From Dictyoglomus turgidum DSM 6724 (GTDB lineage: Bacteria; Dictyoglomota; Dictyoglomia; Dictyoglomales; Dictyoglomaceae), in contig NC_011661.1 in NCBI RefSeq assembly GCF_000021645.1, positions 714,723 to 778,722 of the forward strand: a stretch of DNA of 64,000 nt, in the 5' to 3' direction. Below the pieces are notes generated by a model. It saw only the letters and a list, made by a program, of their open reading frames with translations. It was not told where the DNA came from and did no database searches. Below, piece by piece: positions 3,205-64,000 of the stretch (positions are counted from its first letter, which is position 1; each line of letters begins with the position of its first letter). The translations under genes were made by a program, and so were the position numbers.

Positions 3205-3750
3205 ATGAAGAGGTCGGAATATGAAAGGGCAAAGAAGAGGGCTATTGAGTTTCTAGAGAGGGCTCATATTGTTATTACTGATGAGGAGAAGAATAGAATT
3301 GAAGTAGCTGATTTTGGACTTGGGAAAATTGATGTATTTGGCCTACAAATTCTGACCTATGTGAGTACAGAGAGGGTTTGTGCTAAAGAACTTATTCTAT
3401 TTCCAAGACAAACTTGTCCAGAACATAGGCATCCTCCTTTCGGCGGAGATCTTGGTAAGGAAGAAACCTTTAGATGTAGATGGGGAAAAGTTTATCTTTA
3501 TGTTCCTGGCGAGCCTGCGGAGAATCCTAAAGCTACTGTTCCCGAAGAAAAGAAAAAGTATTTTACTGTTTGGCATGAGATAGAACTGAATCCGGGGGAG
3601 CAATATACTCTTTACCCTAACATTCCCCATTGGTTTCAAGCAGGAGATGAAGGCGCTATTGTTTCAGAATTTTCTACCCGAAATTCAGATGAATATGATA
3701 TCTTTACAGATCCTGAAATAAGAAGAATTCCTGTGATTGAGGAAGATTAA
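3205..3750 (+). CDS. D-lyxose isomerase (cupin sugar isomerase)
   Basis: Cupin-fold sugar isomerase that interconverts D-lyxose and D-xylulose (and often D-mannose and D-fructose) using a divalent metal. The metal ligands are visible as CPEHRHPP (His74, His76), Glu87 eleven residues later, and His142 in PNIPHWF, the expected H-x-H...E...H set, and the length of 181 residues is typical. A TTG at 3199 is also in frame, but the GGGAGG at 3191-3197 sits only two bases from it and eight from the ATG at 3205, so 3205 is chosen. It follows the DUF4129 gene by 18 bases and precedes the RNase H gene by two. A D-lyxose isomerase of this type is, to my memory, characterised from Dictyoglomus turgidum. 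Confidence 0.88.
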   Translation: MKRSEYERAKKRAIEFLERAHIVITDEEKNRIEVADFGLGKIDVFGLQILTYVSTERVCAKELILFPRQTCPEHRHPPFGGDLGKEETFRCRWGKVYLYVPGEPAENPKATVPEEKKKYFTVWHEIELNPGEQYTLYPNIPHWFQAGDEGAIVSEFSTRNSDEYDIFTDPEIRRIPVIEED

Positions 3751-3752
3751 AA

Positions 3753-5027
3753 TTGTATGGGAGAAGTTGGAAGTTAGATATTAATGAAAGTGAGAAAATA
3801 AAAAGTTATTTGATAAAAATGGGAGGTGTGGAGGAATCTATTAAAAATTCTTATGAATTATGGAGAATAAAATTAGGAGGTAGCACTTTTATATATTATA
3901 CTTCTGGTAAGTTGTATAGTACTCCTTCAGCCAAGGTCATAAATATTTGGGATGAAATAGATAAACTTGTTAGTAAGAGCTATGATTTGAATAAAGACTA
4001 TGTTTTAGGATTTGACGAAGTAGGTAAGGGAGAAGTATTTGGACCAATTATAACTTGTGGAGTTCTTATAAGAAAAGACGTTATCTCCCAGATACCCTCC
4101 GAGTTAAAAACTCCTGATACAAAAAAATCTCATGGTTTTGAGTACTGGACAAGGATACTAAAGGTACTTGAGGATCTTATATCCGATGGGTTTTATTATA
4201 TTATTGATATTATTCAGCCTCGAGAAATTGATCGTTTTAATATTAACCAGCTCTTGGACTTGTCTTATATGAAACTCATAAAGCAGTTAATTACTGATTT
4301 ACCTTATAGAAAAGAAGTAAGAATCGTAATTGACGATTATGGAGTAGGAGAGGGATTGCAAAGGTTTTTGGAGATTATAAAGGGAGAAAACAATTTTGAA
4401 ACTATTATTGTCACAGAGTCGGAAGATAAATTTTTAGAAGCTAAATTGGCATCTTTAATTGCAAAATCTTACAGGGAGAGCATATTAAAAAATTTGCAGG
4501 AAAGATATGAAATTCCAGAAAGTTTAATCAAGGGGAATATGTCTAATAAAGCCTTGGAATCCTTCTTAAAAAATTATTCCAAGGATGATCTGTGGTTTAT
4601 CAGAAGATCTTTTGGAAAAAGGATTAAGAAGGAAAAGCCTTCTTTTTATAATTTAATATCCGAGGATAATTTTAGATGCTTCTTTTGTGGTAAAGAAAGT
4701 AGTAAGGTAATTTTAAAAGATTATAGATTTCTTTGTTCCTTTTGTGGTAAGGAGATAAAAGATCTTGAGCTGGCTATGAAATATCATAGTGGAATTATTA
4801 AGTTAGAAAAAGAGAGCTTTTACTCTTTTTTTGAAATTATTAAGAATTCCTACTTATTTGATGGGTTTAGTTTTTTAGTTGATAATTCTTTAAGGAATCT
4901 TCTTACTCCCTACGAGGATATAGGAAGAATACTAATTCTTAAAAGGGCTTTTTCAAAGTTTTTAACCCTAAAGATTGAGGGAGACAGTATAGCTTTTTCC
5001 TTTTTCAGGAATATCTACAATGTTTAA
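3753..5027 (+). CDS. RNase HIII-like protein with C-terminal zinc ribbon
   Basis: 424-residue type 2 ribonuclease H, expected to remove RNA from RNA-DNA hybrids. The first 70 residues resemble the TBP-like substrate-binding domain of RNase HIII (STFIYYTSGKLYSTPSAKV). The catalytic core begins with GFDEVGKGEVFGP (Asp88, Glu89), continues with IVIDDYG (Asp194, Asp195) and ends with a segment like ASLIAKSYRE near 233-242. Beyond about residue 300 there is an unusual tail with two Cys-x2-Cys pairs (Cys309/312 and Cys328/331), a probable zinc ribbon, and about 90 further residues. It starts at TTG 3753 with GAGGAAG about ten bases upstream inside the previous gene. Its 3' end overlaps the convergent gene by 60 bases. 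Confidence 0.82.
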   Translation: MYGRSWKLDINESEKIKSYLIKMGGVEESIKNSYELWRIKLGGSTFIYYTSGKLYSTPSAKVINIWDEIDKLVSKSYDLNKDYVLGFDEVGKGEVFGPIITCGVLIRKDVISQIPSELKTPDTKKSHGFEYWTRILKVLEDLISDGFYYIIDIIQPREIDRFNINQLLDLSYMKLIKQLITDLPYRKEVRIVIDDYGVGEGLQRFLEIIKGENNFETIIVTESEDKFLEAKLASLIAKSYRESILKNLQERYEIPESLIKGNMSNKALESFLKNYSKDDLWFIRRSFGKRIKKEKPSFYNLISEDNFRCFFCGKESSKVILKDYRFLCSFCGKEIKDLELAMKYHSGIIKLEKESFYSFFEIIKNSYLFDGFSFLVDNSLRNLLTPYEDIGRILILKRAFSKFLTLKIEGDSIAFSFFRNIYNV

Positions 5028-17207: not shown

Positions 17208-17234
17208 TTAATTTACCTCCTTTTTTATAAAGAA

Positions 17235-17263
17235 TTGACTAAGATACAAAAAAGTATTATAAA
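17235..17263 (+). promoter_or_regulatory. Promoter of the IscU-MIP18 gene
   Basis: TTGACT at 17235-17240 and TATAAA at 17258-17263 are spaced by 17 bases, close to a sigma-70-type consensus. The expected start near 17270 leaves about 35 bases to the ATG at 17306, with GAGGG as ribosome site. Confidence 0.6.
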
Positions 17264-17305
17264 AATTATACTAAAATAGTCGGAAAAATAAAAAGAGGGA
17301 TTAAA

Positions 17306-17929
17306 ATGTTGAGATATACGGATATAGTATTGGAACATTTTAAAAACCCCAGAAATGTAGGAGTCATAGAAGATCCTGATGGATATGCTATAGAAGGAAG
17401 TCCTGCTTGTGGGGATCAAATTGTAGTTTATATAAAGGTTGATCCCAATACAAAAGTCATAACTGACATAAAGTTTCAGTCTTTTGGTTGTGCCTCAAAT
17501 ATAGCTACAGGTTCTATGATGACGGAGATGGTAAAGGGGAAAACTATTGAAGAAGCTTTAAAACTTACTTGGAAGGATGTGGTAGATGCTTTAGGAGGGC
17601 TTCCTCCTGTAAAATTACACTGTTCAGTTCTTGCAATAGATGGTCTTAAAGCAGCAATTAGAAATTATTTGGGAGAAAAAACTGAAGGAAAACTGAGTAA
17701 AGAAGAGGTAGTCAATGTTTTATCCAATGTTTTATATCCCAGCTTGGCTGTAGATATAGTAACTTTGAAACTTTTAAATTTTTTAAAAATTACAGAGAAA
17801 GGAAAAGTTATTATTGAGCTATTATTAGGTGAGGAAGATCCTTTTAAGGAGCATATCAAAGAGGAGATTGTTGAGAAGTTATCAAAAATAAATGGAGTTA
17901 AGGAGGTTGAAGTGAATTTTGTCAAGTAA
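17306..17929 (+). CDS. IscU Fe-S scaffold fused to a MIP18/DUF59-like domain
   Basis: 207 residues. The first 125 are a complete IscU/NifU-N scaffold with the three cluster cysteines Cys35 (SPACGD, Asp37 next to it), Cys62 (FGCASN) and Cys106 (KLHCSV). The last 75 residues (LSKEEVVNVLSNVLYPSLAVDIVTL... to the ...INGVKEVEVNFVK end) match the pattern of MIP18/DUF59 (SufT/PaaD-like) domains: helix, hydrophobic strand, charged strand, helix, then GVxxVxV. It is therefore not the usual NifU C-terminal domain with CxxC. It assembles and perhaps hands over Fe-S clusters with the divergent cysteine desulfurase. The fusion assignment of the tail is by pattern and is less certain than the IscU part. 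Confidence 0.85.
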   Translation: MLRYTDIVLEHFKNPRNVGVIEDPDGYAIEGSPACGDQIVVYIKVDPNTKVITDIKFQSFGCASNIATGSMMTEMVKGKTIEEALKLTWKDVVDALGGLPPVKLHCSVLAIDGLKAAIRNYLGEKTEGKLSKEEVVNVLSNVLYPSLAVDIVTLKLLNFLKITEKGKVIIELLLGEEDPFKEHIKEEIVEKLSKINGVKEVEVNFVK

Positions 17930-17950
17930 AAGTTATTTACCGTCACTTAT

Positions 17951-18915
17951 ATGTTTGATAAAAATATTATCATGAAGAGTTTGGATGTTTCTTTAGTGAT
18001 ACCAGTCAAAGACGAAGAAGTTACTTTAGAAGCCTTATATGAAAGAATCACAGAAGTATTAGAAGGGTTAAATCTTACTTTTGAAATTATTTTTATTGAT
18101 GATGGAAGCACTGATCAGTCTTTTGATATTATGAAAAAGCTATCTCAGAGGGATTCAAGGGTTAAGGTTGTGAAATTTAGAAAAAACTTTGGAAAAGCTG
18201 CAGCTCTTTCTTGTGGGTTTGAAAAGGCAAGGGAAAATATTGTTATAACTATGGATGCTGATTTTCAGGATGATCCAAAAGAAATTCCCAAATTTATTGA
18301 CTTGATTAACAATGGTTATGATGTGGTTTCTGGCTGGAAAAAAATAGAAAAGATCCTTTGAGTAAAAGACTTCCTTCAAAGATATTTAATAAAATTACTG
18401 CTTGGCTTACAGGTGTAAATATTCATGACTTTAATTGTGGATTTAAAGCCTATAGAAATGAGGTTATAAGAAATCTTGAGGTATATGGGGAACTTTACAG
18501 ATATATTCCTGCTCTTTCTCATAGTAAAGAATTCAAAATTGGTAAGGTAGTAGTAGAACATCATCCGAGGGTTTATGGAAAGTCAAAATATGGATGGGAA
18601 AGATTAATAAAGGGATTTTTAGACCTATTTACGGTAGTGTTTCTTAAAAGATTTTTGAGGTGTCCTATGCACTTTTTTGGTGGTGTTGGATTAATATTTT
18701 TCTTTTTAGGGTTTCTCATAAACTTGGGACTCACCATATACAAATATACTACTGGTGTTCTCATAGGAAATAGACCGCTACTTCTTTTTGGAGTACTTTT
18801 AATGATTTTAGGAGTTCAATTTTTATCTATAGGTCTTCTTGGAGAGATGATAAATAATGTTACTCATGGAAGAAAAAAGGAATATCTGATTTCAGAGGAG
18901 ATTGGTTTTGAGTAA
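17951..18915 (+). pseudogene. Glycosyltransferase family 2 (dolichyl-phosphate-mannose synthase type), frameshifted
   Basis: Two frames make one GT2 enzyme. The first part (17951-18361) has VSLVIPVKDEEVTLEALYE, FIDDGSTDQS and the DADFQDDP motif, and runs into a stop after VVSGWKK. The second (from about 18345 to 18915) resumes with NRKDPLSKRLPSKIFNK and carries the QWDR-like acceptor region and two C-terminal membrane spans. An eighth A in the A7 run at 18338-18344 would restore one frame. ATG 17972 (MKSLDVSLV) is an equally good start; neither has a ribosome site. Members of this group load a sugar onto a lipid carrier. Loss of one base may be decay, sequencing error, or slippage; neighbours argue for decay. 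Confidence 0.8.
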
Positions 18916-20524
18916 TGTATATTTTAAGGTCATCATTGATGAGATTCCAAGGCTTCTTGGACTTTTAGATAAGAACCCTATATAAGTCCTACTTTTGGTT
19001 CTTTTGATAGAAACTATCGGCATTATAATATTTCTGACTTTTCCTGTGCCAGATTTCAAGAGGCGACTTTGACTTTGGCTTTGCTATATCTTTTGAATTA
19101 CGATAATAATCCTTATTATAACTCAGAGGATATTTTGAAATTTATTAACGGGGGAGTTAATTTTTGGTGCAAAATCCAGAGGAAAAATGGATCTTTTGAT
19201 GAATGGTATCCTTATGAGGGTAGTTTTGTAGCAACTGCTTTTTCTACTTGTGCTATTTCAGAGGTTTTACTTCTTTTAAAGGAAAAGATAGCAAATTTTG
19301 ACAATTCTTTAAGATGTATTAAAAAGGCGGTGGATTTTCTTTCTAAAAATGTAGACTATACTGCTTGCAATCAAGAAGCAGGTGCTATTCTTGCTATATA
19401 TAATTGCTATTTGCTCACCTCGGAGAGTAAATATAGGGATTTGGCTTATAAAAGACTAAATGATCTCTCTAAATTACAGAAGGAAGAAGGATGGTTTCCC
19501 GAGTATGGAGGACCTGATATAGGTTATTTATCTCTTACCATAGACTACCTTGCTAAGGTTTACGAAAAGTCTAATTGGGATCTTGCAAAAGAAATGCTAA
19601 CTAAAGCTATAGATTTTTTATATTATTTTTCCCATCCTGACGGGAGCTTTGGTGCAGAATATGGCTCAAGAAATACTAAATATATAATTCCTTCTGGAAT
19701 AGAATTTATAGCTCCATGGAATAGGAAAGCTGGATATATAGCTTTCAATTTGAGAAGAGCCCTTTTTGAGAAAAAAACCATAGGACCATATAATTTAGAT
19801 GATAGATACCTTGCTTATATTGGTTATACTTATCTTCAAGCATCTTTATATTTTAGAGAGGATTTAGAGGTTGAAGAAAGAGGTCATGTAGACAAATATT
19901 TTGAGGAAAGTGGAATATGGGTTTTCTCTAATAGCAGTTTTTATCTTGTTTCAAATTTCAAAAAGGGTGGAGTCTTAAAGGTTAATTTCAAAAATGGCAG
20001 TTCTTTTAAAGATAAGTGGGATTATTTTAAAAACTAAAAACAAAATCTATACTTCTTCTTGGTTAAATTCTTCTGAGGAAAAGATAATTAAGGATGGTGG
20101 ATTTAAGGTTTCAAGAGAAATGAAGCTAATTTCTTTTTACAAAATGAGCATTATTAAAGGCATTTCTTTAAGAGTTTTTCAACTTTTACTGGGAAGATTT
20201 GAGTTTATAAACAAGCTGGTGAAAAAATTCTTGAGAGGCATATTAATTACGAAGCAAAAATCTTCAGGAATAAGATTTTTTAGGACTATAAAAGTAGTAA
20301 ATGAAAAAATTGAAATGGAAGATCTAATTCTTTCGTCAGAAAACATAAATAAAGTATTTTGTGTGGTGGAGAACTCTTATATTTTCATACCGTCTTCTCG
20401 ATATTTTGAGATAGGAGATTTGAATAAGTATTTTCATGAAATTGAAGTAGGTTCTAAGAAAGTGATAATTAGGAGGGTATTTGATGAGGAGGGGAATGAG
20501 GAATTTGATTATAAATCTGATTAA
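18908..20524 (+). pseudogene. Toroid-fold glycan-operon protein, frameshifted twice
   Basis: Start inferred at TTG 18908, eight bases inside the end of the GT2 gene, with GAGGAG seven bases upstream. The frame gives SNVYFKVIIDEIPRLLGLL and stops at 18983; one base is missing there and the next frame continues ISPTFGSFDRNYRHYNISDF to the long open part 19069-20037. Near 20014 one extra A breaks GSSFKD from SGIILKTKNKIYTSSW, after which the frame runs to 20524. The repaired protein is about 535 residues. The middle has repeated helical pairs with GWFPEYGGPD and HPDGSFGAEYGSR motifs, like alpha/alpha-toroid proteins of polysaccharide clusters. Enzyme activity is not established. Confidence 0.65.
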
Positions 20525-21471
20525 GTTAGGATTAACTTTTCTTGTTTTCTTAGTAATCTTTAAAAGAGTTTCCTTTCCTTCCTTGATAGAGATTTTACAA
20601 GGAGTTAAGTTTATCTATTTTATTCCTACTTTTTTGTTAAGCTTGGCTTTTACGATTTTGAAAATTTATAAGTGGCATTTATTACTAAAAATCTCTTGAG
20701 GATGTAAGTTTTTCTAAATCCGTGGATAGCTATCTCATTGGTATGACTCTTGGGATTGTTACTACTGGGAGGATTGGAGAGATTGGTAGAGTGAGTAATG
20801 TAAGTAAAAAGTTAGAAGGTATAAGTATTGCTCTTTGGGATAAAATTTTTGATCTTTATGTAGTATTGCTTCTTGCTTTACCAGGGATTTATTATTTTAA
20901 AGGGTTGTTTCTGAGTATTTTATATGTTCTCTTTTTGATAGTAATCTTCTTTCTTCTAATAAAGCCTGAATATCTTGAATCTTTAAAGAGGTTTCCTATC
21001 TTAAGAAGTTATCCTCAACTTGTTAATGGTTTAAAGGCTATTGAGAGAAAAATCTTTATAGTTAATCTTCTTATTACTTTTGTGGCTTATTTTCTTGTTG
21101 TTTTTGAGGGATATTTTTTAGGTAAGGCTTTTGATATTGATAATTTCTTTGCTTTTCTTTACGGATATCCTCTTGTGATGCTTGTAAATTTAGTTCCTAT
21201 GACCATTGCAGGGCTTGGATTAAGAGAGGGCACTGCTATCTTACTTTTGAATAAATTTTCTATTCCTTCTAATGTGGCGTTTAATGTTTCCTTTTTGATA
21301 TTTCTTCTAAATACTGCCTTGCCTGCTATTTGGGGAATTTTTGCCATGTACCTAGAGGAAATTAAAAAGAGTATTTATAAAACTGATGTATGGGCTTACT
21401 TGATTACTCTTTTTGGGGGATTTTTGAGATTCTATAAAATTGGAGTTATGGATAGACATTATCTTGAATAG
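20484..21471 (+). pseudogene. Flippase-like membrane protein (UPF0104/AglD family), frameshifted
   Basis: ATG 20484 is chosen because AGGAGGG lies seven bases before it. The first frame (LIKLGLTFLVFLVIFKRVSF, then KWHLLLKIS) hits TGA at 20697; one extra base there, and the following frame reads EDVSFSKSVDSYLIGMTLGI with the conserved GRIGEIGR and GLGLREG motifs of the lysylphosphatidylglycerol synthetase/flippase-like family. Seven or eight membrane spans. Its end has no stop codon of its own: the frame runs on from about 21375 into what looks like the N-terminus of the next glycosyltransferase and stops at 21471. Proteins of this type accompany glycolipid synthesis; activity as a flippase is not proven. 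Confidence 0.72.
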
Positions 21472-22711
21472 AGCCCTCACAGGTATTCATCCACCTTTGT
21501 ATTTCATTGTTATGCATTTTTGGATAAAGATTTTTGGGGGTTCAGAGGTTGCTTATTAGGTCTATCTCAGCTTTTTTGGAATTTCGTGTATCTTTATGAT
21601 ATATAAACTTGCTTCGAAGCTTTTTGATAAAGCTACAGGGCTTATTTCTAGTATCCTTTTTGCTCTTTCTCCTTTTCATATATATTTTGCTCAAGAAGCA
21701 AGAATGTATCCTATGGTGATTTTTCTTGTACTTTTTTCTCTCTATTATCTTGTTAAAGGAATAGATAAAACTAAGAATCTTTTCTTTATAACTATCGCTA
21801 ACGTCCTTATGCTTTATACCCATATTTTCTCAGCTTTTGTAGTACTTGTTGAAAATCTCTATGTTATTACTACAAGCTTTAAAAATAAAAAACTTTTAAA
21901 GAGATGGGTTATTGCTCAATTTATAATTTTGATTTTTATCTCTCCATGGTTATATGTGATTATTCAAAGCAGGACTCCAGAAGTTTATCAGGGTGCCCAA
22001 AAAGTTTCTTTGATTAGTCTTGCCTATACCTTTTTAGAAGTAAACCTTGGAGCTGGAAGATCAGTTTTTAGGAATAAAGCTCTTATTGCAATTGTATTCA
22101 TTTTTCTTTCTATTATTGGATTGTTGCCTCCTTGGGATAAGAAAAGGGAGCTTTTTCTCTTGATTTTGTATCTTTTTGTTCCTATTTTACTTTTACTATT
22201 TCTTTCCTTAGGGAAAAGTTTCTTTAGTGCGAGATACATTTCTATATTCATACCTGGATACTTAATTCTTCTTAGTAGAGGTATCAGAAGATTTAAGTAT
22301 TATTCATTGATATTACTTCTTCTTATTGGAATTCTTGGAGTATATTTTCTGTCTTTAAATTATTATTATAGCAATCTTGCTAATTTAAATCGTCCATGGA
22401 GAGAAGCTGTGAGATATATACATGAGAATGTGGCAAGCGAGAAAGTCTTTATTTTTGCTCCTTATATGTGGAGACCTTTTGAATACTATAATAGAGGAAA
22501 AATAAATTATGAGACTCTAAGTATTTCTCAATTAGAGAGTAAATTGTTTAATTTGTCTCAGGGTGAAAAGTTCTGGGTAATAATTGCAAATGAAGAAGTA
22601 GAAGATCCTGAAGGAAAACCTCTGAGGTTTCTGGAGAGTAAGTTTATCCTGCTAAGAGAAGTTAAATATTATAGAATTGTTATTAAGCAGTGTAAAGTAC
22701 CAGAAAGTTAA
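21376..22711 (+). pseudogene. GT39/ArnT-type membrane glycosyltransferase, broken
   Basis: The N-terminal WAYLITLFGGFLRFYKIG is typical of family 39/83 enzymes that move sugars from lipid carriers in the outer leaflet. That frame stops at 21469; the next frame reads NRALTGIHPPLYFIVMHFW, stops at an in-frame TAG (21557-21559), and continues open from about 21560 to 22711 (FFGISCIFMIYKLASKLF, FAQEARMYPMVIF, then further spans). The acidic Asp-Glu motif expected in the first outer loop between the first two pieces is missing, as if a short segment was deleted. The open part alone is 371 residues with eight or more membrane spans. The last four bases overlap the convergent gene. Confidence 0.72.
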
Positions 22712-25700
22712 TTTATATTTATAAGAAGCATGCCTTTGTCATAGTTTATTATTTCTTCCATATCTTTTTTGTATTCTTTAAAATCTTGAGCAGGAATTAA
22801 TATTTCTTTTTGAGTGAAGACCCTTTTTAGGGATAGGATATTATTCTTTTCTTCAATTTCCACGGAATATTTTATCCATTTATTTTCTTTTGTTACACTT
22901 TTGATTGTCGTATCTATGTTTATTCCCTGAGGAATGTTTATGCTTATTTCTTCTATCTCTTGATAAGGTAAATAGTATTCTATATCGTAATTTCTTTCTT
23001 CTCTTGTTATCTCTTCTGCAGACTTTATACTGGAAAAGGGGAACATGTTTAATAGGTTTATTTCTTTTTTATAAGATGTAATATATGGATTCTCAAATTT
23101 TAATTTAATTATTAATGGTTCTTCTAAGTTACCTATATTTTGGACATCCCAATCCGTCAACTTAGAATTGGGAATATAGTAATTCAAGAGTCTTGATAAG
23201 AAGTTTTCTTTTTGTAATGTAGTCATAGTCTTAAGATAGTACCGATAAGAGTTTGCAAAATATCCTGTAAGAGTTATCTGAGTTTCTGCTACCAAATTCT
23301 TCTCTTCAATGTTAATTTTTGTGTTATATTTTCTTAAGTTGTTCTCTGGTTTACTCATAGGGATTGTGGTAAGAATTGGTTTTCCATCTATGATGATCAT
23401 AGCATCTGCTCCTTGATCCATGCCTGGAACTTCTCCAAAGGGAGTGTCTTCTGCAGTTCCATCTAAAAAGAGATAGGAATTTTTATAGGGGAGTGCAACT
23501 ATAGCATGATCAAATTGAAATCCTGGAAGTTCCTTTTTCAAAGGCGATGAATATCGGGTAGAGACTAAAGTATAATAAGCTTTTATTCCTGCCTCCTTTA
23601 ACATAGTAAGAAGTAATACTGCTTTATCCTTACAATCTCCATATTTAGCTTTAAAGATCTCAGGAGCACTATGGGGCATGATTCCTCTTATTCCATATTC
23701 TAATCCCACGTATCTTATTTGATTGGTTACAAAGTAATAGATGGCTTTTATTTTTTCTTCTTCCATTTTTGCACCCAAAACAAGTTCTCTTACCTTTTCT
23801 TTTATTTCCTTATTACTTCTGATCTGAGGGTAGGCAAGAGAGTAGTACCAATCTGCAAGATCCTCCCAACTTCTAAAGGTGGTTATCCATAATTGAGGCA
23901 CCAATTTAGCAAGGTCTGGCATATAGGGTTCTTCTGTGATGCCTGGAACGTTCTCCATCTTCCATGTGAATATTTTATAATCTTTATTCTGGTTTACCTC
24001 TGGATCAACTTTACCATTGTATACTTTATATTTAAAATCTATGGTAGATGGTATCTTCAAGATATATATACTCCTTAGAGTTGGAACTTCATTTTGGAAG
24101 AAGAATATATCTTGAAAGTTTTTTCCGAATATACTTCGTGTATATTCATCAATTACATAGAAACACTCAAGAATGGCTCCTTTTTCTACTGCTGGCATAG
24201 AGATAATAATTTGTCTTTGATCAGTATAAAGGGGATAATCGGATGCTACCGAAAAGTCCTGTATGGAGGTTGCCTCTAATTCCTTTCCATCGGGTTTTAT
24301 GGTTCTTGCTCTTAATATTCTTACATCTTCAAAGCTTGAATCATAATTTATAGTTATCTCTCCATATTTGTCTTTTGCTTCATCTTTTAGAATTTTTATT
24401 ATTTTGTGGAAAACTACGGTAAAAGATCCATCTTTATGCATCGTTCTTTCTTGCCAATCTAATAGATATATGGCGGGAAAGTCTAAAAATTCTTTTGGAA
24501 TGTCCTTTGATAGATATTCTGAGATATCCGGAATCTTAATTTGCTCACTTCTCAGATAGTTTAGATATTCTCTTATTCCCTTATAAGATGGATCAATTTC
24601 TATAGCTTTTTCATAGGATTCTATAGCAAGCTCTTTTTCATCTTTCAAGTGATGTATTTCTGCTTCATAGATAAAAATTTCTGGATATAAGTAAGTTATC
24701 TTTTTCGTTTTTTCTATTAATCTTTGAGCCTCTTCTATTTTCTCTTGAGAGAGATATATTCTTATGAGTTGAATGTATGCCCATATATCCGTAGGATCTT
24801 TTTCTATTAGATTTTTGGCTAAGTTTTCTATTATGTCATATCTGTGTAGATCTCTAGCAAGATAGAAGAGACTATAAAATACTTCCCAGTTTTCCCAATT
24901 CATAGATAGGGCGGTTAAGTAGTTTTCTATGGCTTTGAAGGGCATATTTCTTTTTTCATACATTTTACCTTTTAAAAAGTAAGCTTCTTGACTCGTTTTA
25001 TAACCCTTCTCAAAAATACTTATTTGATTTTCTACCTCTTTAGTCCAGGAGAGAGCATTAAAGAGTCTTATAAGTAGACTTCTCAAAAGAAAAGAATTTT
25101 CGGGTATATCTTCTTTTTCTAAGTTTTTCAGTGCTTCCTCATATCTTCCATGCTCTAATTCATAGAGGGATAGGTAATAAAGATTCATTTTCAGATTTTT
25201 TGAGAGGGAATAAGAATCAAGAAGGTATTTTCTTCCTGTTTCTACATCTTGAGAGCCTAAGTAGAATTTTCCGAGAATAAACTTTATAACTTCAGAATCC
25301 TTTTTTATTTTCTCTGCTCTTTTAAGGTACTCTTCTGCCTCTTCCGAAACCCCTTTTTCAGAGAGTAAAAATCCATAAAAGGTATAAAAGATTTCAGAAG
25401 AGTCACTCTCTTTTATAAGCTCTTTTTCAGGTAGAATTCTTTCAAAATATATTTGGGTTTTTCTATAATTTTGAGGTTTCACTGAAGTTTTTAGTCCTGA
25501 TATTTTATTTCCTTTAGAATCTGTTATTCTTAAAAAGAAGCCAAAATCTCCTTCTTGATTGCAAAATTTTAACAAAAGTTTATGCCAGCCTGAAGATAGA
25601 GGAATTCTATATATTTCTTGGTCCCAAATTGCTCTTCTTTGGGTTTCTATTTCATATATATGGCAATCATCTAAGAAGAGTTTATAAGAACTTGTAGTTC

Positions 25701-28260: not shown

Positions 28261-29973
28261 ATGTATAAAATTAGGATAGGCAAAGATAAATTAATTTACT
28301 CAGAAAAGGGAGAAAATCTCCTCAGGGTGTTGAGGGATAACAATGTAAGTGTACCTTCCATATGTAATGGGGCAGGATGGTGTGGAAAGTGTAAAGTAAG
28401 GGTTTTGAAGGGCAATAGTTTAACTTTGACTGAGGAAGAGAAGAGACTTCTTTCAGAGGAAGAGATTAAAAATAATATTAGGCTTGTTTGTCACCTAACT
28501 ATTGAAGAGGACTTAGAGATAGAAGTTTTAGAAGAGATTAGTACTTTCAATTTTTCTAAAGAGATAGAATATAAAACTTCTTTAAATCCCTTAGTAAACT
28601 TAGAGAGATTCCGGAATAAAATAGATTCTAAAGATATAGATATCTCTTATATAGAGTATATAGAAAAAAGGAAATATGTCGTAAGAAATTTAGAAATAGT
28701 TAGAAGATTACCAAGCTTTTTAAAGGATGGATACTTGGAAGGGACCATAGTAGTGTTAGATAATGAGGTCATAGATTTGAGGGAGAAAGATTTAGAAAAA
28801 ATTTATGGATTTGCTATAGATATCGGAACTACAACTTTGGTTGTTTCTCTTTTAGATATTACCACAGGTAAAAGAGTAGGAGTTAAGATGGAGATTAATC
28901 CTCAGGTTTCTTATGGAGCTGATGTTCTTTCACGAATTAATTATGTAATGAGTGATCCTCATGGGCTTTTTGTTTTATGGGATCTGCTCATTTCTAAACT
29001 TGAGGATATGATAGGTAGTCTTTGCAAGGAAAAGGATATAAGTGTTAATGATGTTTATGTTGGTTCTATAGTTGGTAATTCTATAATGACACATATTTTT
29101 CTTGGAGTAGATCCTTCAAGTATTGGGGTTTTCCCCTTTACTCCAGTCTTTAAGAAGAGTTTTCTAATTTCTTCTAAAGACCTTTTTAAAAGCATTAAAA
29201 ATGCAAAAATTTACACTTTTCCTCTTATTTCTGGCTATATAGGTGGGGATATTGTATCAGGAATTTTAGCTTTAGGTATGCATCGTAAACCTGAAAATAG
29301 TCTCCTTATAGACATAGGAACTAATGGGGAAATAGTATTGAAGCATGATAACAAATTATTTTCCTGCGCTACTGCAGCAGGTCCTGCTTTTGAGGGAGGA
29401 AATATATCTCAGGGAATGATAGCAGTAAGTGGTGCTATAGATCATGTGTGGATTGAGGACGGTAAGGTAAAGTATAGTGTCATTGGGGGTACAGAGGAAA
29501 AAGGTATAACGGGTTCGGGTTTGGTAGATGCTATAGCGGTAATGCTGGATTTGGAGGTATTAGATAAAACAGGAAGAATGAGAAAAAATGAGTTTAACGT
29601 AGGAAAGGTGAGGATAACCCAAAAAGATATAAGAGAGTTTCAATTGGCAAAGTCTGCTATAAGGGCTGGAATAGAGGTATTACTTAATAAAGCTGATATT
29701 ACCTATGAAGATCTCGATAGAATATATGTGGCAGGAACCTTTGGAAATTACATTAATTTAGAGAATGCTATTAAAGTAGGGCTTTTACCTCCTATTGAAA
29801 TTAAAAAATTTGTTATTTCAGGGAATACAGCTTTAATGGGCGCAGAGATATTGCTTCTTAATAAGGAGTTAATAGAAGAAGCAGAGGAGATAATTAAAAA
29901 AGTTAAATATATAGATTTATCGTTATCCTCTGAGTTTCAAGAGTTATTTGTGAAATTTATAGGGTGGGGTTAG
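28261..29973 (+). CDS. Corrinoid activation protein (RACo/RamA-like, 2Fe-2S + DUF4445 ASKHA)
   Basis: 570 residues. An N-terminal plant-type [2Fe-2S] ferredoxin domain has Cys35, Cys41, Cys44 (CNGAGWCGKC) and Cys77 (RLVCHL). A linker follows, then an ASKHA ATPase-like domain from about residue 185 (GFAIDIGTTTLVVSLLDI, LLIDIGTNGEIVL, IYVAGTFGNYINLENA). Such proteins use ATP to reduce inactive Co(II) corrinoid back to Co(I). It starts right after the stop of the corrinoid protein gene, which is thus the obvious client. Members of this family have also been linked to B12-dependent methionine synthase reactivation. The electron donor is not identified here. Confidence 0.92.
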   Translation: MYKIRIGKDKLIYSEKGENLLRVLRDNNVSVPSICNGAGWCGKCKVRVLKGNSLTLTEEEKRLLSEEEIKNNIRLVCHLTIEEDLEIEVLEEISTFNFSKEIEYKTSLNPLVNLERFRNKIDSKDIDISYIEYIEKRKYVVRNLEIVRRLPSFLKDGYLEGTIVVLDNEVIDLREKDLEKIYGFAIDIGTTTLVVSLLDITTGKRVGVKMEINPQVSYGADVLSRINYVMSDPHGLFVLWDLLISKLEDMIGSLCKEKDISVNDVYVGSIVGNSIMTHIFLGVDPSSIGVFPFTPVFKKSFLISSKDLFKSIKNAKIYTFPLISGYIGGDIVSGILALGMHRKPENSLLIDIGTNGEIVLKHDNKLFSCATAAGPAFEGGNISQGMIAVSGAIDHVWIEDGKVKYSVIGGTEEKGITGSGLVDAIAVMLDLEVLDKTGRMRKNEFNVGKVRITQKDIREFQLAKSAIRAGIEVLLNKADITYEDLDRIYVAGTFGNYINLENAIKVGLLPPIEIKKFVISGNTALMGAEILLLNKELIEEAEEIIKKVKYIDLSLSSEFQELFVKFIGWG

Positions 29974-34510: not shown

Positions 34511-35737
34511 TTACTCTGAGCGCAAAGCTTGAATGGGATCTAAATTTGCTGCTCTCATGGCAGGTAAAACTCCAAAGATGAGCCCAATAAAAAGGGAAAA
34601 TAGAAAGCCTAAAATTAGGGTTGAGTAAGAGAGATTATAAGGTACCTCAAATCTGGATAGTATTTCTCCTGTGATGATAGATAGGCCTATTCCAAGGGTT
34701 CCACCAATCATTCCTAAAAATCCAGATTCGGTTAAAAATTGTATAAGAATATCTTTCTTCTTCGCTCCAATTGCTTTTCTAATTCCTATCTCTTTATATC
34801 TTTCCGTTACAGAAACCAGCATTATATTCATGATACCTATTCCTCCCACAATAAGGGAGATAGCTGCTATTCCAGCAAGGGTTAAAGTCAGTATGTTTAA
34901 TATATCGTTCATAGCAGAGAGTAAATCTTCTTGCTTTGCAATGACAAAATTTAATTTTCCTCTTCTTTGCTTTAGGACAAATATCAATTTTTGTCTATAT
35001 ATTTCTATGTTTTTGCTATCTCTGACTTGTACGATAAGGAAATTCAAAATTTGGTCACCTTTTAACATCAAAGCAGTAGTTAGGGGGATTATTATTCTTG
35101 AGTCTAAATCTCCTAAGCTTTGATTATATCCTCTCTCTTTTAAGACGCCTATTATTCGAAAGTTGTGATCTCCAATTTTTATTATTTTATTTATGGCTTC
35201 CTTGTAATTAATGGCTATGTTTTTTGCTACCTTAGGTCCTACAATACATACTTTCTCTTTTGCATTTTGCTCATAGGAAGTAAAAAATCTTCCCTCACTT
35301 ATGGAATCTCTGTTTATTAAGAGTCCATCATTATCAGTACCATGAACAGTAGCTTCAAGGGGAAAGATTTGGTAGTAAACATTGTAGTAAGAGGATATTA
35401 AAGAAGAAACTAATAATTCATTTTTAAAGAGAGCCCTTAGATATAATAGGTCATTATAATTAAATAGCTGAGGTATTCCTCTTCTTGTCCTTTGTATTTG
35501 TATGGAAGTGAAAGTTCCTCCAGTTTCCAAAGCCGATGGAAATATTATTAAGGTATTACTACCAAGATTTTCTATTATTTGAAGAGTTTGATTTTTAGCG
35601 CCCTCTCCTATAGATATGAGGAGTACCACAGAAAATACTCCAATGATTATTCCTAATATGGTTAAAAAAGACCTAAGCTTGTTAGATTTCAAGGAATAAA
35701 GAGCTAATTTTAAGTTTTCCTTAAGCTGTGTCTTCAT
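34511..35737 (-). CDS. MacB-type ABC transporter permease (FtsX family)
   Basis: 408 residues. An N-terminal span (LRSFLTILGIIIGVFSVVLL) precedes a large extracytoplasmic MacB_PCD domain (about 45-270), then three C-terminal spans with the FtsX domain and the MLVSVTERYKEIGIRKAIGAKK motif. Such permeases use mechanical coupling to export substrates together with an HlyD-type adaptor and an ATPase. The adaptor gene overlaps its start by four bases. No LolD/MacB ATPase gene follows or precedes in this run, so the ATPase must come from elsewhere. Substrate unknown: peptide, lipid or drug. Confidence 0.88.
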   Translation of the reverse strand: MKTQLKENLKLALYSLKSNKLRSFLTILGIIIGVFSVVLLISIGEGAKNQTLQIIENLGSNTLIIFPSALETGGTFTSIQIQRTRRGIPQLFNYNDLLYLRALFKNELLVSSLISSYYNVYYQIFPLEATVHGTDNDGLLINRDSISEGRFFTSYEQNAKEKVCIVGPKVAKNIAINYKEAINKIIKIGDHNFRIIGVLKERGYNQSLGDLDSRIIIPLTTALMLKGDQILNFLIVQVRDSKNIEIYRQKLIFVLKQRRGKLNFVIAKQEDLLSAMNDILNILTLTLAGIAAISLIVGGIGIMNIMLVSVTERYKEIGIRKAIGAKKKDILIQFLTESGFLGMIGGTLGIGLSIITGEILSRFEVPYNLSYSTLILGFLFSLFIGLIFGVLPAMRAANLDPIQALRSE

Positions 35738-60147: not shown

Positions 60148-61524
60148 ATGCTTGAAGATGAACGGGGTAAAATAGGTAAAAGAGTTCTTGCTCTTGCTAT
60201 ACCCGTTTTGTTAGAAAACCTATTTCAGCTTGTCTTTAGTTTTGTGGATATGATTTTTGTAGGGTTTTTAGGAGCGGTTGCTCTTGCCGCGGTGGGATTA
60301 GGGATGCAAGTTATTAACGTAATTCTTGCTATTATTGCGTCTCTTACTGTGGGTACTATGGTTACAGTGGCTTATAGTGTAGGTGCTAAAAAGCATAATG
60401 ATGCTGCAAGGTATTTGGAGAACTCATTAGTTTTAGGCTTTTATCTCTCAATTTTGATTCTTCTATTTGGTTTATTTGGAACCGATAAACTTTTACAGAT
60501 TTTAGGTGCAAAAGGAGAGCTTCTTTATAATTCTTCTCTTTATTTAAAATACATTCTTATTCCTAGCTTTTTAATTGTGTATATGTCTATAATCTCTTCT
60601 GCTTTGAGGGGGTCAGGTGATACAAAAACCCCCTTATATGTAAGTATAGTTTCAAATGCTTTAAATATTTTCTTGGATTATGTGTTTGTTTTTGGCAAAT
60701 TTGGATTTCCTAAGATGGGGGTTGCAGGTGCAGCTTTGGCAACAACTTTGTCTCGCTTGTTAGGTATGGTTATTCTTTTTTATATTATTTATAAGAGAAA
60801 TGATTTTTTAAGCTGTAAGTTTTCCTGCAAGATTGTTCCTGAGAAAGATGTCAGTACCCAAATACTAAAGATAGGTATTCCTACATCTCTTGAGCAACTC
60901 CTCTTTAACATGGGAGCTCTTCTTTATGCTACTATTGTATTAAGCTTGGGTACTAAGGTTTATGCAGCTCATAGAATAGCATTAAATGTAGAATCTCTTT
61001 CTTTTCAGCCTGGTTTTGCTTTTGGGGTTGCAGCAACAACTCTTGTGGGGCAGTATAAGGGGGCAAGGGAAGATGATTTGGCAAGATTAGCCTCTATTGA
61101 ATCATGGAGGAAAGCTGTTATCTTCATGGGAAGTGTTGGCGTCCTTCTTTTTTTCTTTCCGGAGTATCTGGTTCAAATATTTACAAGAGATATGGAAGTA
61201 ATTAAATGTGCTTCATCAGTATTAAAAATTATTGCCGTGATTCAACCACTTCTTGCAACTGCAAATGTTATGTCTGGATCCTTAAGAGGAGCTGGTTTTT
61301 CTAAGATTCCTATGGTAATAAGTGGCGTAGGTATGTGGTCTATTAGGATACCTCTCGCTTATGTGTTAGCTTTGAAGATGGGTTTAGGACTTACTGGAGC
61401 ATGGATTGCTATGGCCACAGACATATCTTTAAAAGCAGTTGCTAATTATTACATGTTTATAATCAAAAAGTATTATAAAAAGGAAAGTTTTAAACTAAGG
61501 TATGAAGAAGCTATTAGTAATTGA
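60148..61524 (+). CDS. MATE-family multidrug/sodium efflux transporter
   Basis: 458 residues with twelve predicted membrane spans in two six-span halves. ALAIPVLLENLFQLVFSFVDM, RGSGDTKTPLYVSIVSNALN and the second-half PTSLEQLLFNMGALLYA and GSLRGAGFSKIPM motifs are typical of MATE proteins (NorM/DinF-like). Exchanges drugs or metabolites for Na+ or H+. Ribosome site TTGGAGG ten bases before the ATG. Transcription is likely controlled by the leader terminator. Its end overlaps lipB by 23 bases. The substrate is not known. Confidence 0.92.
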   Translation: MLEDERGKIGKRVLALAIPVLLENLFQLVFSFVDMIFVGFLGAVALAAVGLGMQVINVILAIIASLTVGTMVTVAYSVGAKKHNDAARYLENSLVLGFYLSILILLFGLFGTDKLLQILGAKGELLYNSSLYLKYILIPSFLIVYMSIISSALRGSGDTKTPLYVSIVSNALNIFLDYVFVFGKFGFPKMGVAGAALATTLSRLLGMVILFYIIYKRNDFLSCKFSCKIVPEKDVSTQILKIGIPTSLEQLLFNMGALLYATIVLSLGTKVYAAHRIALNVESLSFQPGFAFGVAATTLVGQYKGAREDDLARLASIESWRKAVIFMGSVGVLLFFFPEYLVQIFTRDMEVIKCASSVLKIIAVIQPLLATANVMSGSLRGAGFSKIPMVISGVGMWSIRIPLAYVLALKMGLGLTGAWIAMATDISLKAVANYYMFIIKKYYKKESFKLRYEEAISN

Positions 61525-62489: not shown

Positions 62490-63479
62490 TTAGTCTTTCC
62501 TTCCCTCTTCTTCTTTTTGTCCTAATTTAGAGATGGCTTCTCTCATTGCAGTATCTGCTATTATATTCTTTAGGGTATAGTAATCTAAGACTCCAATTTT
62601 TCCGCTTCTTAATGCTTCTGCTATAGCAAGGGGTACTTCTTTTTCGGCTTCTATTAATCTTGCTCTCATCTCTTGAGTAAGGGCTTTCATTTCCTGTTCT
62701 CTTGCAATGGCAAGGGCCCTTCTACTTTCAGCTTGAGCTTGTGCGATTCTCATATCAGCTTCTGCTTGATCCATTTTTAACCTTGCTCCCACATTATTTC
62801 CTACATCTACATCAGCTATATCAATAGATACTATCTCAAAGGCAGTTCCCGCATCGAGTCCTTTTGCAAGTACTGTTTTTGAAATGCTATCTGGATTTTC
62901 TAAAACTTCTTTATAACTTTCTGCAGAACCAATAGTGGTTACTATTCCTTCTCCAACTCTTGCTATAATTGTAGCTTCTCCTGCTCCTCCTACTAATCTT
63001 TCAATATTTGCTCTTACTGTTACTCTTGCTTTGGCTTTTAATTCAATACCGTCTTTCGCTACAGCAGCTACCACAGGAGTTTCAATAACTTTTGGATTAA
63101 CACTCATTTGTACTGCTTCTAATACATCCCTTCCTGCAAGGTCTATAGCTGCTGCTTTTTCAAAGGTCAAGGGAATACCTGCTCTCTGGGCAGCAATTAA
63201 AGCATTTACTACTTTATCTACATTTCCACCAGCTAAGTAATGAGCTTCTAATTTATCAAGAGTCACCTCTGAAAGTCCAGCTTTATGAGCTTTGATTAAG
63301 GAGTTTATTATTACTCCAGGTGGAACCCTTCTAAGCCTCATTCCAATTAGATCGGTAATTCTTATGGAAACTCCTGCAGCAAGAGCAGAGATCCATAAAC
63401 CTAAAGGTACGAAGCTAAAAAATACTCCAAGAAATATCAATACTAAAATTAAAATTAAAAAACCCCAAATCAAATTCAT
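62490..63479 (-). CDS. floA: Flotillin-like protein FloA (UPF0365/YqfA)
   Basis: 329 residues. An N-terminal hydrophobic hairpin (about 5-40) is followed by the UPF0365 body: [69 protein letters not shown], and a long helical C-terminus rich in Ala/Glu. FloA organises ordered membrane microdomains in Bacillus. The NfeD gene overlaps its start by four bases, the usual pairing. Conserved closely throughout. Confidence 0.94.
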
Positions 63480-64000
63480 TTCTCACTCCTCCTTACAAAG
63501 ATTTTATTCCCCTCAACCTTAAAGACTAAAACTTCTTCACCGGGCTCAATAAATTCTGATTCTGAATAGGCCTCAAATCTTTCCCCGTCAATCTCTATAA
63601 TTCCTGTGGGACGTAACATGGTAATAGTTTTTCCCTTTTTTCCAATCAAATCTTTTCTCTCTTGAACTGCAGTATAACCTAACTCTTTCTTTTGACTTCC
63701 AGAAAGGCCAAACTTTTTCCAAACACGGCTTCTTGGTAGATAAATTGCTAAAAATATTATGAGAGAAAGCACTACAAAGATTCCTGTAAGTAGGGCTTGA
63801 AAGGTACCTCCTTTTTGAACTATAGTCCAGTATATACTAAGGAACACTGAAATACTGCCTGCTATTCCTGGAATTCCGAATCCTGGCGTATGCATTTCTA
63901 TAAATATGAGTATAAGCCCAAGGATAAATAGGATTAAGGGTTCTAATCCTGCAAGACCAGCAAGATAATGTCCTCCAAAAAAGAGTCCCAGACATATCAA
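63476..64000 (-). CDS. NfeD-like membrane protein, N-terminus beyond the window
   Basis: At least 174 residues, cut by the window's end. Four membrane spans (from [25 protein letters not shown] onward) and a C-terminal OB-fold domain (from about residue 115; [28 protein letters not shown]) typical of NfeD, which works with flotillin. The long form carries a ClpP-like serine protease domain upstream; whether it is present cannot be told. The first codon seen (TTG at 64000) is not taken as the start. Ends four bases inside floA. Confidence 0.88.

Follow-up and report, generated by a model that had tools for sequence, protein, structure and literature searches.

Dictyoglomus turgidum DSM 6724 carries, at positions 17951-22711 of the 64,000-nucleotide stretch of contig NC_011661.1 analysed here (the window), a set of glycan-related genes with broken reading frames, which raises the question of whether an operon has died in this organism and, if so, what it encoded and how long ago it was lost. 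An earlier note, made from the letters alone, had seen here a glycan operon in decay inside otherwise intact DNA, a description that finds support when D. thermophilum and three other relatives are compared. Very probably, a three-gene operon for the modification of a target with a lipid-carried sugar was lost by pseudogenization in D. turgidum, recently relative to its split from D. thermophilum.

Disruption of the operon in D. turgidum

The main comparison was a MAFFT alignment of window positions 17931-22720 with the syntenic locus of D. thermophilum (genome G002), with a blastn alignment as a second view. The two species are colinear across the window, except at 17225-17949. The other relatives compared were G003, G001, and G005; a third Dictyoglomus species, placed at 74% average nucleotide identity (PMC5854780), was left out of the comparison.

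In all four relatives three genes are open at this locus, with lengths of 314-327, 535-540, and 751-762 amino acids (aa), in the order glycosyltransferase family 2 (GT2) protein, barrel protein, and fusion of a flippase-like part with a glycosyltransferase C-fold (GT-C) part. The reading-frame test found the frames intact in these four and all three genes disrupted in the window, and the broken state in D. turgidum is therefore derived. A comparison with related strains had been proposed in the earlier note, which counted four genes; the flippase-like and the mannosyltransferase-like parts are a single open reading frame (ORF) in the relatives, which brings the number to three.

Lesions were counted as frame-breaking gaps within genes, leaving out triplet gaps, and their coordinates, placed by the MAFFT alignment with D. 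thermophilum, are approximate. Seven such gaps lie within about 3.2 kb, with net changes of -1, +2, +1, +1, -50, +1, and -1 bases. The clustering of breaks is real, and the earlier count of six is one too low. The starts of genes 2 and 3 were set by alignment to the D. thermophilum TTG and ATG starts, respectively.

17951..18915, + strand: gene 1 (pseudogene), predicted GT2 polyprenyl-phosphate sugar transferase, ArnC-like (Pfam PF00535, alignment)
18338..18344, + strand: lesion 1, net loss of one base, A7 run left (MAFFT alignment)
18902..20524, + strand: gene 2 (pseudogene), predicted alpha/alpha-toroid and beta-sandwich protein, 535-540 aa in relatives
18979..18984, + strand: lesion 2, net gain of two bases, one additional TA within TATATA (MAFFT alignment)
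20013..20016, + strand: lesion 3, net gain of one base (MAFFT alignment)
20484..22711, + strand: gene 3 (pseudogene), LPG_synthase_TM (flippase-like) and PMT_2 GT-C fusion, 751-762 aa in relatives
20684..20692, + strand: lesion 4, net gain of one base, placed at A5 (MAFFT alignment, ~20687-20697)
21446..21458, + strand: lesion 5, junction of a net 50-base loss (MAFFT and blastn alignments)
21549..21555, + strand: lesion 6, net gain of one base at ~21552, bringing TAG at 21557 into frame
21570..21577, + strand: lesion 7, net loss of one base at ~21571, T6 run (MAFFT and blastn alignments)

Gene 1 is split by the net loss at ~18340 into the ORFs 17951-18361 and 18358-18915, gene 2 persists as the ORFs 19069-20037 and 19994-20524, and gene 3 persists as 20481-20699, 20722-21471, and 21596-22711. 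The lesion at the A7 run (18338) and the extra bases at 20014 and at 20697, the latter placed at the A5 run, agree with what had been read from the letters. The base thought to be lost near 18983 is instead a gain of two in the TATATA stretch, with an equal effect on the frame. The frame change at 21466-21470 does exist as a downstream effect of the net 50-base loss at ~21446-21457, which appears as a single gap of 50 in MAFFT and as 8 + 42 bases in blastn. Most of the stretch RSIW[IL]DEAITAQVS of gene 3, invariant in 4/4 relatives, is deleted by this lesion; an acidic motif of this kind is presumably catalytic in GT-C enzymes.

The in-frame TAG at 21557 is likewise present, as a by-product of the +1 (~21552) and -1 (~21571) pair; lying between these two shifts, it was rejected as a substitution stop. 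A non-triplet gap pair at 19460/19469 in gene 2, seen with blastn and absent from MAFFT, was read as alignment noise and not counted.

Integrity of the remaining window

The window holds 67 ORFs of at least 100 aa, of which 51 outside the operon could be paired with D. thermophilum ORFs. Left out of these control pairs were six operon fragments, seven ORFs without a partner, and three others (34671-35123, 60148-61524, and 63476-64000). Six of the seven partnerless ORFs face a longer ORF, and the seventh, 17306-17929, has no counterpart at the corresponding site in D. thermophilum. None of the control pairs is broken (0/51), the length ratio to the D. thermophilum partner being 0.92-1.20, and the claim that the rest of the window shows no comparable breaks thus holds. 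If the seven breaks were spread evenly over coding DNA, the chance of all of them falling in 3.24 kb would be 1.4e-9, which speaks against scattered error, although lesions inside a dead operon are not independent of each other.

ORF integrity was preferred as the control over raw counting of blastn gaps, which placed non-triplet gaps in 15/51 control genes; most of these gaps form compensating sets a few bases apart, in genes with an open ORF in D. turgidum and D. thermophilum alike, and were taken as alignment noise. Nine control codon columns read as stop in the window, five of them no more than 4 codons from the ORF end and four within compensating gap sets, and these columns were likewise put down to alignment noise.

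Predicted functions of the operon genes

The functions were assigned mainly from the intact orthologues. The D. thermophilum orthologue of gene 1 has a GT2 domain and, over nearly its full length, matches NCBIfam PRK10714 (ArnC) at 1.1e-61 and the solved structures of ArnC (9hwj, 1.7e-53) and sll0501 (5eke, 1.9e-41). With 208.6 of 529 bits it falls far below the ArnC equivalog cut-off, and for this reason we do not name the sugar. The nearest known systems are the ArnC, PgfS, and GtrB-type polyprenyl-phosphate glycosyltransferases, unlike which the window copy is broken.

The D. thermophilum protein of gene 3 exceeds the Pfam cut-offs of LPG_synthase_TM (94.7 bits) and PMT_2 (64.5 bits, cut-off 26.1) and passes that of the flippase-like family TIGR00374 (49.4 of 43.2). 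For Agl23, archaeal STT3, and the mannosyltransferase model it falls short of the cut-off. PMT_2 is still recognizable in the window fragment when read through a stop (52.1 bits). Compared with known flippase-like and GT-C PMT_2 proteins, the gene 3 product has both domains fused into one protein.

Searching the gene 2 sequence against PDB structures gave no match. The AlphaFold2 model of the G003 orthologue (predicted local distance difference test score 92.2, 38 sequences) folds into an alpha/alpha toroid and a beta sandwich. Its best Foldseek match is the chondroitinase 9o3q (E 5.4e-9), followed by chondroitin, xanthan, and hyaluronan lyases, with identities of about 10% and, over the first 16 Foldseek rows, query TM-scores of 0.45-0.57 and root mean square deviations (rmsd) of 6.6-10.9. 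The toroid alone (residues 1-321) matches the AGE-type cellobiose 2-epimerases with a Z-score of 24.1 and an rmsd of 3.2 over 300 aligned residues. The predicted structure thus has the toroid and sandwich fold of polysaccharide lyases, a shared fold that by itself shows no function.

In the relatives, polyprenyl phosphate is most likely charged with a sugar by the gene 1 product, and the lipid-linked sugar would most likely cross the membrane with the help of the flippase-like half of gene 3. The GT-C half, going by its family, would then transfer the sugar to an acceptor on the outside. The toroid and sandwich protein of gene 2 probably acts on the sugar or glycan. That a lipid-carrier-based modification system has been lost, as the earlier note proposed, is a fair reading of the GT2 matches to ArnC and sll0501 and of the gene 3 matches to LPG_synthase_TM and PMT_2.

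Dispensability of the system

Five of seven Dictyoglomaceae genomes have matches to genes 2 and 3, and neither gene is matched in G004 or G006, each of which is 99% complete; their absence from 2/7 family genomes marks the system as dispensable. PMT_2 is matched once in each of the five operon genomes and in neither G004 nor G006. Throughout the D. turgidum genome, the gene 2 and gene 3 models match the operon fragments only. A second PMT_2 gene was not found there, the sole match being the broken gene 3, so that no replacement is seen. D. turgidum retains one flippase-like paralogue that has an open frame and passes the cut-off, and its genome gives six other GT2 matches, at 26-35% identity. 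The loss is ordinary pseudogenization of a dispensable operon, probably for a lipid-linked glycan. Once one step had failed, the other genes would have been free of selection, and slippage-type indels as well as the loss of about 50 bases could have gathered.

Indel decay of dispensable surface-glycan operons is a known source of bacterial pseudogenes. As in such cases, several small frameshifts and one small deletion are limited to a single functional unit; the D. turgidum operon stands out just by how clearly its lesions cluster and by the close relative with an intact copy. As a probably recent loss of a glycan system, the decay is clean but ordinary. Its use lies in the nearly colinear species pair, in which the only PMT_2 gene found is intact in one species and broken in the other, so that an envelope comparison could reveal the product of the module. 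The two Dictyoglomus type genomes should also not be assumed to share this pathway.

Selection and the age of the loss

The pairwise ratio of nonsynonymous to synonymous substitution rates (dN/dS) between D. turgidum and D. thermophilum is 0.111 for the pooled operon (0.073, 0.093, and 0.143 by gene), with a pairwise dS of about 1.1. The control genes have a pooled ratio of 0.066, a median of 0.054, and a maximum of 0.24. Branch-specific values of this ratio (omega) were obtained from a five-species codon likelihood with our own script and are rough, synonymous change being near saturation. By gene, omega in D. turgidum and D. thermophilum is 0.054 and 0.031 for the GT2 gene, 0.035 and 0.097 for the barrel gene, and 0.084 and 0.092 for the fusion gene. 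For the fusion gene the fit improves when D. turgidum has its own omega, with p 0.015 alone and p 0.033 beside a separate D. thermophilum omega.

Amino-acid changes polarized by outgroups number 134 in D. turgidum and 113 in D. thermophilum for the operon (p 0.20), and 219 and 229 for the 12 control genes left after 6/18 were dropped for too few orthologues. Counting just the columns that are conserved in the outgroups and the other species, the operon has 38/637 changes in D. turgidum and 21/620 in D. thermophilum (binomial p 0.036), and the control genes have 84/2374 and 77/2367. Estimated by hand, the conserved-column excess equals about 1.2% neutral divergence; the standard error is roughly half as large, and the upper bound is about 2%.

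Several observations weigh against a decayed operon. Lesions 1, 4, and 7 sit at homopolymer runs, the commonest sites of sequencing error, and the lesions are known from one D. turgidum genome. Within the reference frame of the operon there is no substitution stop codon. With the three genes taken together, omega is 0.061 in D. turgidum, 0.079 in D. thermophilum, and 0.048 in the background, so that no relaxed selection is seen, and the omega of the fusion gene is raised in D. thermophilum too (0.092, p 0.023). The operon does not differ significantly from the controls at the conserved columns (Fisher p 0.13), and gene 2 has 11 conserved-column changes in each species.

The dN/dS analysis suggested by the earlier note therefore gives no clear sign of lasting relaxed selection on the D. 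turgidum branch, the conserved-site excess being weak. The loss therefore probably came late compared with the split of the two species, and the lack of substitution stops agrees with this.

Alternative explanations for the broken frames

The alternative that survives best, unlikely as we consider it, is that sequencing or assembly errors accumulated in a locally poor stretch, covered by few reads or by a finishing PCR clone, and that the operon is intact in the organism. Codons conserved nearly as in a living gene would fit such errors, as would the positions of lesions 1, 4, and 7 at A or T runs of at least 5 and of lesion 2 in a TA repeat; these positions also correct the earlier statement that only the first lesion lies at a homopolymer. 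The net 50-base loss and the two-base gain are atypical for base-calling, and the 611 homopolymer runs of at least 5 in the intact window ORFs (56.3 kb) are all unbroken. A single Sanger read is shorter than 3.2 kb, the distance over which the lesions are spread. Like the earlier note, we consider sequencing error an unlikely cause of the breaks.

The genome was sequenced with 20x Sanger and 454 reads and finished at an average of 17.3x (PMC5167688), which also argues against a poorly read stretch. The terms “pseudogene,” “frameshift,” and “glycosyltransferase” are absent from the main text of that paper, and, among the titles listed for Dictyoglomus with pseudogenes, or with envelope and glycosylation, none addresses this question. 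The one paper reached through a guessed locus tag uses that tag for a ferredoxin.

Decay that began soon after the split from D. thermophilum would have given the seven lesions time to gather. We regard it as very improbable, given a branch omega of 0.061 that is not moving toward 1, the lack of nonsense substitutions, and an excess of about 1% neutral divergence (at most about 2%) against the pairwise dS. Recoding, in which programmed frameshifting or transcriptional slippage bridges the lesions and the system still works, could draw on the A7, A5, and T6 runs at 3/7 lesion sites and on the good codon conservation, but is hardly credible, as several separate events would be needed, none of them restores 50 bases of a stretch invariant in four relatives, and these relatives lack such frame changes.

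Wider occurrence of the barrel protein

A collection of contigs was scanned with gene 2 via two short peptide patterns; it may omit records near D. turgidum, and the counts are lower bounds. The scan gave at least 42 loci (L031-L072), which carry the names of many phyla; Candidatus Borrarchaeum is the label of one, and three are the loci of G003, G001, and G005 already described. Neighbours were called by means of profiles made from the Dictyoglomaceae genes. In 20/42 loci a GT2 ORF directly adjoins the barrel ORF, upstream in 19 and downstream in 1, the ORFs as drawn overlapping in L054 and L062. It lies elsewhere in the fetched stretch in 10 loci. In the remaining 12 no GT2 ORF was seen, though several of these offer little sequence upstream. 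The barrel ORF is directly followed by a flippase-like ORF in 9/42 loci, and in 4 the latter is fused with the GT-C part.

At curated cut-offs, none of the six intact barrel members tried reaches a Pfam family, and the one tried against NCBIfam also falls short; a window fragment of gene 2 is above the Pec_lyase cut-off, with no single stretch significant. Tentatively, the decayed operon might be one remnant of a widespread uncharacterized module, present in many phyla and made up of a GT2 polyprenyl-phosphate sugar transferase, a barrel with a lyase/epimerase fold, and often a flippase-like protein. If so, D. turgidum and D. thermophilum would form a natural pair of loss and retention for finding the product of the module.

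A 960-aa flippase-like/GT-C fusion is found at L034:6580-9462, in a metagenome-assembled genome labelled just “bacterium.”

Neighbouring genes and other observations

As the earlier note had stated, the heptose genes nearby are intact; they encode SIS/HAD, PfkB kinase, and cytidylyltransferase domains, and their frames are open in comparison with D. thermophilum.

Directly upstream of the operon, the NifU-domain ORF 17306-17929 is missing at this place in D. thermophilum, which has instead the short ORFs L013:3096-3437 and 3538-3951, without a Pfam match; the best NifU match in G002 is partial, 59% identical, and at another place. That these two ORFs, located between the cysteine desulfurase and the operon, are transposase remnants was a guess that we dropped, neither having matched Pfam.

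The fastest-evolving intact pair of the window is 28261-29973, with the highest dN/dS of the 51 controls (0.24). The ORF 60148-61524, encoding a MatE-family transporter of 458 aa, pairs with an ORF of merely 223 aa in D. thermophilum and may be the reverse case, broken in D. thermophilum and intact in D. turgidum.

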